32,669 nt of DNA, taken from positions 75,595 to 108,263 of the forward strand of contig SCTA01000017.1 in NCBI GenBank assembly GCA_004322275.1. The letters run 5' to 3'. Below the pieces are notes generated by a model. The model searched no databases, was not told the origin of the DNA, and saw nothing but the letters and a program-made list of their open reading frames with translations. Of the stretch, positions 18-26,486 are shown one piece after another (the stretch's first letter is position 1; the number at the start of each line of letters is the position of its first letter). Source of the DNA: a bacterium (GTDB lineage: Bacteria > Desulfobacterota > Deferrisomatia > Deferrisomatales > BM512). The translations under genes were made by a program, and so were the position numbers.

Positions 18-1349
18 ATGAATATCCTCTGGAGCGAGGTTCTCTTTGATCTTGAAAGGGAGGTTCCCGCCCAAACCTTCGCCACCTGGATTAAACCTCT
101 GGAGGCATCAAGGGTTGAGAGAGACGTCTTTTTCATAACGGCGCCCAACCGGTTTTTCGCGGACTGGCTCAAGGACAACGGGCTTTCCTCGCTGATCGAG
201 GGGATCCTGGAGCGCCGCCTCGGGACCAGGGTCCGCGTCGAATTCACGATCTCAAAAAAACCCCAGCGCCAGCCTCCTTCCGGCGAGACGGCTAAAAAAG
301 AAAAGAGCGAGTGGCGCGAAAGATCGGTGCGCATAGGCCTTAACCCAAGGCACACCTTTGAATCCTTCGTAGTGGGCCCCTGCAACGAATTCGCGCAGGC
401 GGCCAGCAAGGCGGTCGCGGGCGGCTCCCACCACAATTACAACCCTCTCTTCATCTACGGGGGAGTCGGTCTCGGGAAGACCCACCTCCTTAACGCCATA
501 GGCAACCAGAAGCTGATGGAAAACCCTCAGCTGAAGATTTGCTTCGTCACCTCCGAATCCTTCACGAACGAACTGATTCAGGCTCTCACCAACGACCGGA
601 TGAACGAGTTTCGGGCCAAGTACCGGTCGATGGACGTTCTTCTGGTGGACGACATCCAGTTCCTGAAAAAGAAGGAGCGCACGCAGGAGGAGTTTTTCCA
701 CACCTTCAACGCCCTCTACGAGAGACAAAAATCCATAGTCCTTTCGAGCGACAAGTTCCCCAAGGAGATTCCCGAGATCGAGGACCGCCTCCGCTCCCGC
801 TTTGAATGGGGGCTCATAGCAGACATCCAGCCGCCGGATATGGAGACCAAGGTCGCGATACTTAACAAGAAGGCGCAGATCGAGTCGATAGAGATGCCCG
901 GCGAAGTCTCCATGTTTCTGGCTTCCCGGGTCTTGTCCAACATAAGAGAGCTGGAAGGCTCCCTTACCCGCGTGGCCGCTTTCGCGAACCTTACCCACAC
1001 CAGCATAAACATAGAGTTGGCCAAGAAGGTTCTGCAGGGGTCCTCGCAGGGGCCGGAATCCTCCCTGAGCGTGGAGGACGTGCTGAAGGCCGTTTCCGCT
1101 CACTGCAAGATAAAGATCTCCGACATAAAGGGAAAGAGGCGCACGAAGGTCATAGCCTGGGCGAGGCAGCTCTCCATGTATCTGTCAAGAGAGCTTACCG
1201 ACAGCTCCTTTCCGGAGATAGGAAACCGTCTGGGGGGAAAGGACCATTCAACCGTTATGTACGCCTGCGACAAGATAGCCGAAATGGCCGAAAAGGACCG
1301 CGACGTGGCCCGGCAGATAAACTCGATAAAGTCCACCCTCGGCAAATGA
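18..1349 (+). CDS. dnaA: Chromosomal replication initiator protein DnaA
   Basis: AAA+ ATPase that binds DnaA boxes at oriC, melts the origin and loads the helicase. The 443-residue protein has the normal bacterial length and all four domains: an N-terminal interaction domain (about 1-75), a short charged linker (about 76-105), the AAA+ core with Walker A GGVGLGKT (148-155), Walker B LLVDDIQF (208-215) and an arginine-finger region RLRSRFEWGL (257-266), and a C-terminal helix-turn-helix domain ending in the DnaA signature GGKDHSTVMYAC (406-417). The ATG at 18 follows a GGGAG Shine-Dalgarno-like stretch at the window edge. dnaN, recF and gyrB follow, the classical origin order, and the downstream gap contains the probable oriC. 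Family assignment is certain from motifs and context. Confidence 0.98.
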   Translation: MNILWSEVLFDLEREVPAQTFATWIKPLEASRVERDVFFITAPNRFFADWLKDNGLSSLIEGILERRLGTRVRVEFTISKKPQRQPPSGETAKKEKSEWRERSVRIGLNPRHTFESFVVGPCNEFAQAASKAVAGGSHHNYNPLFIYGGVGLGKTHLLNAIGNQKLMENPQLKICFVTSESFTNELIQALTNDRMNEFRAKYRSMDVLLVDDIQFLKKKERTQEEFFHTFNALYERQKSIVLSSDKFPKEIPEIEDRLRSRFEWGLIADIQPPDMETKVAILNKKAQIESIEMPGEVSMFLASRVLSNIRELEGSLTRVAAFANLTHTSINIELAKKVLQGSSQGPESSLSVEDVLKAVSAHCKIKISDIKGKRRTKVIAWARQLSMYLSRELTDSSFPEIGNRLGGKDHSTVMYACDKIAEMAEKDRDVARQINSIKSTLGK

Positions 1350-1391: not shown

Positions 1392-1400
1392 TGTGGATAA
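1392..1400 (-). promoter_or_regulatory. DnaA box, perfect consensus (TTATCCACA on the minus strand)
   Basis: The plus strand reads TGTGGATAA, the exact complement of the consensus DnaA box. A weaker site sharing only the TCCACA core lies 11 bp upstream (1380-1388, minus strand). Confidence 0.85.
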
Positions 1401-1503
1401 GATGTCGATGAATCCGAACCTTCCCGGAACTGTCTAAAACCGGTTTTTTCATCAACATCTTCTGGACAGCAAAAAACTTTCGCTTCAAAAGGGAAAAGAT
1501 GAG

Positions 1504-1512
1504 TTTTCCACA
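1504..1512 (+). promoter_or_regulatory. DnaA box, one mismatch (TTTTCCACA), next to the unwinding region
   Basis: It differs from the consensus TTATCCACA at one position, sits 13 bp before the triplet run at 1526-1540 and points toward it, as the boxes flanking the unwinding region do in Bacillus subtilis. A degenerate second box (1513-1521, 5 of 9 matches) fills the intervening stretch. Confidence 0.75.
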
Positions 1513-1525
1513 ATTTCTGCAGGGC

Positions 1526-1540
1526 CTATTACTACTACTT
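1526..1540 (+). promoter_or_regulatory. DnaA-trio element of the origin unwinding region
   Basis: Five consecutive triplets CTA-TTA-CTA-CTA-CTT directly follow a GC patch and precede the AT-rich tract. On the complementary strand these read 3'-GAT-type repeats, the published DnaA-trio signature for single-strand DnaA filament assembly. The match in order and spacing is clear by eye; the function is inferred. Confidence 0.75.
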
Positions 1541-1587
1541 TATAAAGGTAATTAATTTAATAAAAGAAGATAGACGGGAGAAAGACG

Positions 1588-2709
1588 ATGCGGATTGAAA
1601 TCAGCCAGGAAGCTTTTTCGGAGATCATTTCCCGCGCTCAATCCACTCTGGAAAGAAAGAGCACGAGGCCCATTCTGGAGAACGTACTCCTTCGGGCGCA
1701 GGGAGAAGAGCTTGTCCTGTCGGCGACGGACCTTCGGATAAGCCTCATTCAAAAATCCGTCTGCAAGGTAAATGAAGCCGGTTCAATCTCCATACCCGGC
1801 AGAAAGCTCAACGAAATCGTAAAGGAAATTCCCAGAGGGACGGTCGCTGTAGAAACCAGGGAAAACAACTGGGTTACGATCTCTGCCGGAAACTCCACCT
1901 TTCACATACCGGGGACGCCGGCTGAGGAGTTTCCTACTTTTCCCACTCCTCCCGACAATTTTCAAAAGATCAATCCCGCTTCTTTCGACCGCATACTCAC
2001 AAAAACGGTCTTCGCCGCCTCCAGCGACGAAACCCGGATTTACCTTTGCGGCGTCTTTTTCAAGGAGTGGGTGGACCAGAAGGGAAAATCCTTCCTCAAA
2101 ATGGTCGCCACCGACGGACACAGGCTCAGCCTTATGGACGAACCCCTCGAAAAGGGGCTCGGCCTGTTTTCTTCGGGAATAATTGTTCCTAAAAAGGGAG
2201 TTGCGGAACTGAAATCCCTTCTTGCGATGGGAAAGGAAGTTTTTGAAATAGCCTGCGCCGACGGACGTCTTTACGCGCGGACGGGGGACATTCTTCTCAG
2301 CGTTACCCTTATCGACGCGAGTTTTCCCAATTACCAGCAGGTAATTCCCGAGATATCGGGAAACGGGGTCCTCATCTCCTGCGATCATTTCAGAGACGCC
2401 ATCAAGAGAGTATCCATCCTCAGCGATCAGGAGACGAGATCGGTCCTGACGGAGATAGAGGGAAACCTCATGACCCTGGTTTCCGACAACCCCGGCATGG
2501 GAGACGCAAAAGAGACCCTTCCAGTGGAATACGCCGGAGCCCCGGTCAAGGTGGCCTTTAACGCCAACTACCTCATGGACATACTCAAAGTCATGGATGA
2601 CGAGACCCTCCGGATGGAGATAAAGGACTCCCTCTCCCCGGCGCTGTTTCTCGGAACCGACAAGGATGCGAGGTTCATGTCGGTGGTAATGCCGATGCGC
2701 GTTGACTGA
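1588..2709 (+). CDS. dnaN: DNA polymerase III subunit beta (sliding clamp)
   Basis: The homodimeric ring clamp tethers DNA polymerase III to the template and is a docking platform for replication and repair proteins. At 373 residues it has the usual length for three repeated clamp folds. It starts MRIEISQEAFSEII, contains the domain-1 stretch STRPILENV, and ends with the family-typical VVMPMRVD, the C-terminal strand bordering the protein-binding pocket. The ATG is preceded by GGGAG (1576-1580) at normal spacing. It lies directly downstream of oriC and its stop region runs into recF, so the two are probably cotranscribed and translationally coupled. Nothing unusual was seen. Confidence 0.97.
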   Translation: MRIEISQEAFSEIISRAQSTLERKSTRPILENVLLRAQGEELVLSATDLRISLIQKSVCKVNEAGSISIPGRKLNEIVKEIPRGTVAVETRENNWVTISAGNSTFHIPGTPAEEFPTFPTPPDNFQKINPASFDRILTKTVFAASSDETRIYLCGVFFKEWVDQKGKSFLKMVATDGHRLSLMDEPLEKGLGLFSSGIIVPKKGVAELKSLLAMGKEVFEIACADGRLYARTGDILLSVTLIDASFPNYQQVIPEISGNGVLISCDHFRDAIKRVSILSDQETRSVLTEIEGNLMTLVSDNPGMGDAKETLPVEYAGAPVKVAFNANYLMDILKVMDDETLRMEIKDSLSPALFLGTDKDARFMSVVMPMRVD

Positions 2710-2713
2710 GGGA

Positions 2714-3811
2714 ATGGTTCTAAAAAGGATTTTGTACAGGGGTTTCAGAAATCTTTCGCCGGAGCCCCTTGAACCCGGGCCCGCTCTGAACGTCTTTTGC
2801 GGCCCCAACGCTCAGGGAAAGACCAACATACTCGAAGCCGTCTACCTTCTTTCCACTCTCGGCAGTTTCAGAACCAGAAGAGTGAGGGATCTCATAACGG
2901 TGGGGGAGAACGAGGCGGAAGTAGAAGGGATAGTCAGCGACGGCTACGGAACAGCCCGGCTTGGCGTCCACCTGTCGAAGGAAGGCAAAAAAGCCTTCGT
3001 GGACAGAAAACAGCCTTTTTCGGCCGCCGGATACCTGAAGGTCTTTCCCACGGTTTTTTTCGGGCCGGGGGACATGGAAATGGCGAAGGGGGACCAGTCC
3101 CTAAGAAGAAAATATCTCGACAGGGCCTCTTTCTCGGCCGATCCCTCGTACGTCGAGAAGATGAAAAACTACCGGCGGGCTCTGGCGCAGCGAAACGAGG
3201 CTCTCCAGAGTAACCAGCAGGACCTCGAGCCCTGGACAACCTTTCTTTCACAGGCCGGTTGGGAGATATGCAGGCAAAGGAGCCTGTCTCTGGGGGAACT
3301 GAAAGAGACGGTAGCGCGCATACACAGGGATATTTCCGGCGGAACCGAGGAGATAGAGATATCCTACAAGCCCTCCTGGAAGATGGAAGAGGGGGCGGAG
3401 GGGCTCAGAAACATTCTTCTGGAGAGCGACGCCGAGGACCGGAAAAGGGGGTTTACCCACCACGGGCCGCACAGGGACAAGGTAAAGGTAAAACTTGGGG
3501 GAAGAGAGATATCCGAGCACGGCTCGCAGGGTCAGCACAGGACTCTGGTTCTTTCGATGAAACTGGCGCTTCTCTTGTGGGCGAAGGAGAAGACGGGCTC
3601 TTCTCCCGCCTTTCTCCTTGACGACCCCGGCAGCGAACTGGACAAAAAGCGCCTCGGCTATCTGGGAGAGTTTCTCACCGGCTGGAAGGGGCAGGTTTTC
3701 GTTTCCTCGGTGGGGAGCGACGACATACCCGTAAACGCCGGCAGCGTTAAAAACGTTTACAATATAGAGTCCGGAAGGGTCGCGAAGACCGGAACCGTTT
3801 CAAAAAACTGA
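2714..3811 (+). CDS. recF: DNA replication and repair protein RecF
   Basis: SMC-like ATPase that binds gapped DNA and, with RecO and RecR, helps load RecA. With the ATG at 2714 the protein is 365 residues and opens MVLKRILYRGFRNL, which aligns with the family N-terminus from residue 1. Walker A is GPNAQGKT (30-37), the ABC-signature equivalent is SQGQHR, and Walker B/D-loop is AFLLDDPGSELD. An in-frame TTG at 2702 would add four residues and overlap the dnaN stop; I prefer the ATG because of the N-terminal alignment, although a GAGGGA stretch directly abuts it and coupling to dnaN is likely. Third gene of the origin cluster. Confidence 0.95.
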   Translation: MVLKRILYRGFRNLSPEPLEPGPALNVFCGPNAQGKTNILEAVYLLSTLGSFRTRRVRDLITVGENEAEVEGIVSDGYGTARLGVHLSKEGKKAFVDRKQPFSAAGYLKVFPTVFFGPGDMEMAKGDQSLRRKYLDRASFSADPSYVEKMKNYRRALAQRNEALQSNQQDLEPWTTFLSQAGWEICRQRSLSLGELKETVARIHRDISGGTEEIEISYKPSWKMEEGAEGLRNILLESDAEDRKRGFTHHGPHRDKVKVKLGGREISEHGSQGQHRTLVLSMKLALLLWAKEKTGSSPAFLLDDPGSELDKKRLGYLGEFLTGWKGQVFVSSVGSDDIPVNAGSVKNVYNIESGRVAKTGTVSKN

Positions 3812-3819
3812 GAGCGTAA

Positions 3820-6225
<2,406 letters not shown>

Positions 6226-23066: not shown

Positions 23067-23151
23067 GCCCAAGTGGTGGAATTGGTAGACACGCTATCTT
23101 GAGGGGGTAGTGGGTATTCCCGTGCCGGTTCGAATCCGGCCTTGGGCACCA
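23067..23151 (+). tRNA. tRNA-Leu, anticodon GAG
   Basis: The 85-nt sequence folds as a class II tRNA: acceptor GCCCAAG/CTTGGGC, leucine-type D-arm GGTGGAATTGGTAGACAC, anticodon stem CTATC/GGTAG with loop TTGAGGG (anticodon 23101-23103), a long variable arm, T-arm GCCGG-TTCGAAT-CCGGC, and an encoded CCA. It reads CUC and CUU codons. Confidence 0.97.
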
Positions 23152-26411: not shown

Positions 26412-26486
26412 TGGCTGGGGCGGCAGGATTCGAACCTGCGATTACCGGAATCAAAACCCGGTGGCTTACCGCTTGCCGACGCCCCA
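26412..26486 (-). tRNA. tRNA-Gln, anticodon TTG
   Basis: On the minus strand the 75-nt sequence begins TGGGGCGTCGGCAAGCGGTA, has anticodon loop TTTTGAT (anticodon at 26452-26454 on the plus strand as CAA), a T-arm GCAGG-TTCGAAT-CCTGC and ends CGCCCCA-GCCA with encoded CCA. It closely resembles E. coli tRNA-Gln(UUG). It lies between ispE and prs, probably in one transcript. Confidence 0.97.

Follow-up and report, generated by a model that had tools for sequence, protein, structure and literature searches.

Does the gap between dnaA and dnaN in this bacterium hold a basal unwinding system (BUS) like that of Bacillus subtilis, and how much of such a site is shared with the origins of its relatives? 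The DNA that we analysed, called the window here, is a stretch of 32,669 nucleotides (bases 75595-108263 of contig C17, which is 108,263 bases long) from a 2.88-Mb draft genome in 45 contigs. It begins with dnaA, the gene for the chromosomal replication initiator (18-1349, plus strand; TIGR00362 at 546.6 bits against a cut-off of 343.9, and an alignment with PDB 8btg). A gap of 238 bases follows, and then dnaN, the gene for the DNA polymerase III beta subunit (1588-2709, plus strand; TIGR00663 at 278.4 bits, cut-off 137.65), recF (2702-3811) and gyrB (3823-6225). The host had been taken for a deltaproteobacterium, correctly so in the old sense of that name, since NCBI puts Deferrisomatales under Deferrisomatia in the Thermodesulfobacteriota. 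Our reading, to which we assign a probability of roughly 0.9, is that 1350-1587 is a predicted oriC, or at least its unwinding half, and that 1504-1565 is its putative BUS. The order dnaA-gap-dnaN-recF-gyrB is one argument for it. The others start from what we can read directly, namely the sequence of the site, its position, its conservation, the register of its distal boxes and the kept residues of DnaA.

The plus strand at 1504-1512 carries the first DnaA box (box 1), TTTTCCACA, with one mismatch to TTATCCACA. The spacer between this box and the trios, ATTTCTGCAGGGC, is 13 nt long (1513-1525) and contains a degenerate second box, ATTTCTGCA (1513-1521, plus strand, four mismatches to TTATCCACA), as well as a GC patch, GGGC (1522-1525, plus strand), at a place where relatives are likewise G/C-rich. 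The DnaA-trios occupy 1526-1540; here the plus strand reads CTA TTA CTA CTA CTT, and the trio strand, which is the minus strand, reads 3'-GAT AAT GAT GAT GAA-5'. Beyond them lies an AT tract, TATAAAGGTAATTAATTTAATAAAA (1541-1565), which by its sequence is the presumed DNA unwinding element. The original prediction had named this order of box, GC patch, triplets and AT-rich DNA, together with a 13-bp distance from box to trios and a degenerate second box in between, and direct reading bears out both. Its GGGCC patch has to be shortened to GGGC, because the last C already belongs to the first trio. A BUS is defined here by a box with at most two mismatches lying 0-16 bp from the trios, by at least three consecutive NAN triplets on the trio strand with 3'-GAT-5' favoured beside the box, and optionally by a co-oriented second box with at most four mismatches. 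We find one mismatch and 13 bp, the run GAT AAT GAT GAT GAA, and a borderline second box with exactly four.

The likeness to the unwinding region of B. subtilis, claimed at the outset, is real: both have the same order of box, box, GC patch, trios and AT tract, in the same orientation and in the dnaA-dnaN gap. The B. subtilis incC BUS (DnaA-boxes 6/7 plus trios) contains the run CTACTATTACTTCTACTA, according to the accessible text of PMC10201434, and 11 of its 15 letters are identical to those in the window. Boxes 1 and 2 are 9 apart in the window and 8 apart in most Firmicutes loci, which makes for a spacer of 13 as against 12; unlike incC, the window has a box 1 that departs from the perfect consensus, in a genome without DnaD. 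In the available portion of their paper, Pelliciari et al. (2021, PMC8287927) predict a BUS in 1755 of 2070 bacterial oriCs, with 13 bp as the commonest spacer and tandem boxes in 57% of predictions. The window site conforms to their search rule and has their most common spacer length, and the surprise that was implied at finding a BUS conserved over a large distance falls away, such wide conservation having been published in 2021. In oriC2 of Clostridioides difficile (PMC7561715, available text) the dnaA-dnaN gap likewise has a run of trios with the unwinding region behind it; that origin is from a Firmicute and its unwinding was shown by P1 nuclease, while the window site is a predicted one. 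No paper containing both "DnaA-trio" and "deltaproteobacteria" was found among the main texts searched. Very probably the site is a well-formed BUS of an ordinary kind, from a class in which none is described in the literature searched. It adds one more prediction to a large set, and its relatives matter more.

The class sample consisted of 12 Deferrisomatia genomes, the window's own counted in. The site is in place in all 12, box 1 starting 68-86 bases before dnaN with box 2, the patch and the triplet zone behind it, and the distance from the start of box 1 to the trio zone is constant throughout. Canonical (YTW) trios stand three or more in a row in nine of the genomes (L001-L006, L008, L010, L012); box 1 of L005 is weak, with three mismatches. 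Mean pairwise identity over ungapped columns of the 12 sequences is 0.85 in box 1 and 0.94 in the ACA tail of box 2. It is 0.86, 0.69 and 0.86 in trios 1-3, falls to 0.49 in trio 4, and amounts to 0.26-0.37 in the DNA between the boxes. The three other genomes (L007, L009, L011) belong to genus g6 of the same order, and read CTA TGA CTT ACG after a box 1 without mismatches and a good box 2; the trio-strand middles are A, C, A and G, an arrangement kept in three species despite failing the NAN rule. Loss of the trios in relatives, which the original prediction had said would speak against it, is therefore not what we see in the class, where they are conserved, although in this one genus they are deviant.

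How far does the BUS extend beyond the class? We ran a published-style BUS search over dnaA-dnaN gaps, with a score of at least 9 as success and shuffled gaps as control. This score was reached by 8 of 12 class gaps (0.42% of shuffles), by 38 of the 56 named loci that could be used, most of them from Firmicutes (1.2% of shuffles), and by 4 of 16 gaps from the remainder of the phylum (1.75% of shuffles). The BUS is thus strong in Deferrisomatia and in Firmicutes, but in the rest of its own phylum it is patchy, many gaps outside the class having no recognisable BUS. The gap counts in this work cover loci with at least 60 bases of gap on the dnaN side, which removed, among others, Gammaproteobacteria and Nitrospira from the score search and 22 regions without a dnaN match from another set. 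L031 has the same gap sequence as L012 on a contig of equal length; it was taken to be the same contig and dropped, though it still stands within the 56 named loci and the 41-locus set. We consider that the presence of the site in 12/12 class genomes, the excess of scores over shuffles, and the conservation peaks in box 1, the box-2 tail and trios 1-3 support the BUS reading. Counted against it are the 3 of 12 class genomes (g6) without a canonical trio run and the weak showing of the phylum outside the class. Separately, loci L251, L255, L257, L259, L260, L262 and L265 (families f22, f68, f72 and f74) carry AAT/AAC/AGT-like plus-strand runs, such as CCTAATAACAACAAG, which sit at the end of the dnaA-dnaN gap in place of the CTA runs, and which are perhaps trios shifted to the opposite strand.

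The DnaA of the window aligns end to end with that of PDB 8btg, a chain which we identify as B. subtilis DnaA from the accessible text of PMC10721633 and from the residue numbers. N187, I190, R202, E228 and R264 (Bacillus numbering) are kept in the window DnaA and in 12/12 class DnaAs; in the parts of PMC8287927 and PMC10721633 available, I190 is described as binding single-stranded DNA, N187, R202 and E228 as forming the trio pocket, and R264 as the arginine finger. A search that detects DnaD in the B. subtilis and L. lactis controls found no DnaD-domain match in the window's genome, which does have DciA. These results bear on a different account of the triplets, according to which the CTA/TTA run on the plus strand owes its conservation to a reader of the opposite strand, for instance DnaD on a TnnT element (DRE), and not to DnaA. 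The account has in its favour that DnaD uses the strand opposite the trios as a site in B. subtilis (PMC10201434, accessible text) and that the plus strand of the window has matching T spacing. Against it, the class conserves the run although the window's genome has DciA and, with positive controls, no DnaD-domain match. With DnaD missing from this genome, the use that it makes of the opposite strand in B. subtilis is unlikely to be why the run persists here, and we give the account very little weight. The kept DnaA residues and the presence of DciA without DnaD favour instead a BUS read by DnaA.

The GC skew of the window's own contig has to be counted against the BUS reading, though it carries no real information: it is weak, its cumulative curve being nearly flat, and on this 108-kb contig of a draft genome its minimum, at 85,641, falls about 8.5 kb from the gap. 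A relative, G007, is assembled in one contig of 4,236,551 bases, which we sampled in 20 stretches of 20 kb. Its skew is negative from 1.05 Mb to the dnaA stretch (3.116 Mb) and positive from 3.22 Mb round to 0.84 Mb; in the sampled stretches it thus turns from minus to plus at dnaA, which speaks for the BUS reading, and turns back roughly opposite. Since G007 belongs to g6, the genus with deviant trios too has a skew turn at dnaA. On contig C1 of G094 the skew near dnaA is mixed.

Three further DnaA boxes (plus, minus, minus) lie upstream of the window's dnaA, at 75559-75590 of C17, with offsets of -53, -42 and -30. They are spaced by 11 and 12 bp, a spacing that recurs at one mismatch or fewer in 10 of 12 class genomes, and they possibly serve autoregulation or form the second half of a bipartite origin. 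Boxes at -53, -42 and -30 before dnaA are in a typical place for autoregulation, and one may ask whether the boxes in the gap, too, are mainly those of a DnaA-controlled dnaN promoter, the triplets being incidental AT-rich promoter DNA. Such a promoter would leave unexplained the three-base periodicity, the box-to-trio distance that is fixed in 12/12 genomes, and the drop in conservation after trio 4, and we find it a most improbable explanation of the site.

The pattern TTWTCCACA-N13-(YTW)x5 occurs a single time in the 108,263-base contig, both strands searched, and neither strand has a run of five or more YTW triplets other than that at 1526-1540. Under the less strict rule in print (box with at most two mismatches, spacer of 0-16, three or more NTN) the contig yields 60 candidates, and the BUS site tops them with a score of 13, the runner-up having 10. 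There are two perfect DnaA boxes in the 108 kb, one 30 bases before dnaA and the other at window position 1392. That the pattern is unique and that the contig's only perfect boxes lie at this locus are further reasons for the BUS reading. Chance triplets beside a chance box, an idea that the 60 candidates might encourage, can be set aside as next to impossible, since the site is the best of the 60 and the sole five-trio match, since 88 of 167 gaps could be anchored where 0.2 were expected from shuffles, and since the conservation of the site already contradicts it.

If the site works as in B. subtilis, from which we infer binding, filament formation, unwinding, looping and helicase loading, ATP-DnaA would bind box 1 (1504-1512) and a second protomer would settle on the weak box 2 (1513-1521). 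A filament of AAA+ domains would then grow over the minus strand of 1526-1540 with a protomer for every trio; each pair of protomers would capture two bases of a trio with a pocket in contact with the amino group of the middle base. By stretching the minus strand the filament would open 1541-1565, the AT tract, for loading of the helicase, in a genome with DciA and without DnaD. Looping of the DNA would probably bring the upstream boxes, at their fixed helical offsets, to the BUS complex, in line with a proposal for the distal boxes of B. subtilis incC.

These upstream boxes we describe by their offsets, start to start, from box 1 of the BUS. A perfect TTATCCACA stands at -112 (1392-1400, minus strand), in a register shared with relatives, and a weak box with two mismatches, TCATCGACA, at -101 (1403-1411, minus). 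The box at -55 (1449-1457, plus) is a weak one, TCATCAACA, with two mismatches, recognised by sequence match and from relatives. Very weak boxes with three mismatches each, TTTTAGACA at -73 (1431-1439, minus) and TTCTGGACA at -44 (1460-1468, plus), were called solely from good boxes in relatives; that these two and box 2 are poor matches counts against the BUS reading.

Over the 12 anchored class genomes we find rightward boxes at -43 to -45 in 9 and at -54 to -56 in 10, and leftward boxes at -72 to -75 in 10 and at -110 to -113 in 10. The half-turn positions tested (-48 to -50 and -60 to -62, rightward) and the opposite orientations gave 0, and random rotation of the upstream DNA equalled the observed value in 0 of 500 trials for all four bins. 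In 33 anchored Firmicutes the same bins hold 24, 21, 10 and 5 boxes (equalled by 0, 0, 0 and 3 of 500 rotations), the half-turn controls again being 0; the remainder of the phylum (15 anchored) is weak, with 2, 3, 1 and 1, and with 2 in one half-turn control bin. All these counts are in bins picked after the offsets had been seen and in groups of related genomes, from which 12 second fetches of the same genomes were dropped. The distal boxes hold a fixed register of -44, -55, -73 and about -112, of which -44, -55 and -73 are common to Firmicutes. A register with empty half-turn controls agrees with the phasing experiment of PMC6669920, in whose accessible text a rightward distal box functions at distances of 44 bp or more if it is in helical phase. 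This agreement is another argument for the BUS reading; B. subtilis box 3, at 44 bp upstream of box 6 in the same source, matches the -44 offset seen here. Conservation of origin organisation in Firmicutes is stated in general terms in the available text of PMC7561715, and no report of the shared register was found in the literature searched, largely without subscription papers.

What do natural origins place in the middle of a trio? According to the accessible text of PMC10721633, cytosine can stand in for the middle adenine whereas G and T do poorly, and that of PMC8287927 suspects deviant trios in some origins, as is now seen in the g6 and f55 relatives, which break the NAN rule. Our anchor fixes only the boxes, the patch and the first trio; L266 and L002 fail it in its strict form though the site is visible. 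In trios 2-4 of the 88 anchored gaps the trio-strand middles are A 223, C 26, G 8 and T 7. Five further anchored gaps, found after the test had been fixed in writing, give A 10, C 4, G 0 and T 1, which makes A 233, C 30, G 8 and T 8 for 93 gaps. Over these 93, C among non-A middles exceeds one third with p = 1e-5 and exceeds G with p = 2e-4, both values treating as independent sites that are not. Rows not inspected before the idea arose, without family f55, give C in 9 of 17 (p 0.076), and together with the new rows 11 of 19 (p 0.024; C versus G p 0.06), so that held-out support for a preference for C is modest.

The clearest case is f55, a GC-rich family (L194, L261, L263, L264, L266, L288) in which GCT trios replace GAT. 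Four of its genera read CTA CGG CGA CGA CGG, CTA CGA TGA CAA CGA, TTA CGA CGG TGA CGG and CTA CGA CGA CAA CGA, the last run occurring also in the unanchored L266, and a fifth genus reads CTA CGC CGT GAG. In f73, C-middle trios are found in L305, and the genus g132 of that family (L302 and L303, unanchored) is canonical by eye. Against a preference for C stand the G-middle and T-middle trios that exist and the concentration of non-A middles in GC-rich genomes, and in single cases frame slips may lie behind a deviant trio.

We looked for correlates of these middles. Firmicutes as a group have DnaD. They show fewer non-A middles (3/32 versus 23/61 in others, Fisher p 0.004), a difference that is gone within GC strata (p 0.40 and 0.50). 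R202K, considered as a partner of C-middle trios, is present in all five f55 DnaAs read, yet also in many relatives with canonical trios. N187D was seen in L162 and, within f55, in genus g99. All 85 anchored genomes with DnaA read have N (83) or D (2) at position 187, and 23 of 74 unanchored genomes, these 23 being mostly Gammaproteobacteria, have another residue there, a comparison confounded by descent.

As far as the sequences go, the shift to C agrees with the published model of base capture through an amino group. The literature searched, including the accessible texts of PMC10225481 and PMC13220808, yielded no survey of the trio middle base in natural origins, and the distal register and the C-middle trios look less familiar than the BUS itself, of whose study they are by-products. 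We propose that origins giving up the middle A take mostly C, a base with an amino group, f55 having gone largely to GCT, and that the -44/-55/-73 register, common to Deferrisomatia and Firmicutes, may represent an ancestral element of oriC that lies outside the BUS and forms a loop; on this joint proposal we consider the odds even. A class with a rigid register and C-middle lineages in the same phylum would offer tests, by natural sequences, of the looping and base-capture models built on B. subtilis. To judge from these lineages, genuine origins may also escape a search by the NAN rule, and some of the 15% for which no BUS was called in 2021 are perhaps among them.

Some observations lie to the side of these questions. 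Two full-length dnaA genes per genome are found in G094, G126, G131, G138, G139, G146, G147 and others, and among the second copies examined all but one are without an adjoining dnaN. At the start of contig C17 (L111, 1-4000) the GC content is 0.379, compared with about 0.60 over the remaining contig, and this stretch is likely to be foreign or mobile DNA. The window also contains a tRNA-Leu(GAG) gene at 23067-23151 on the plus strand and a tRNA-Gln(TTG) gene at 26412-26486 on the minus strand.
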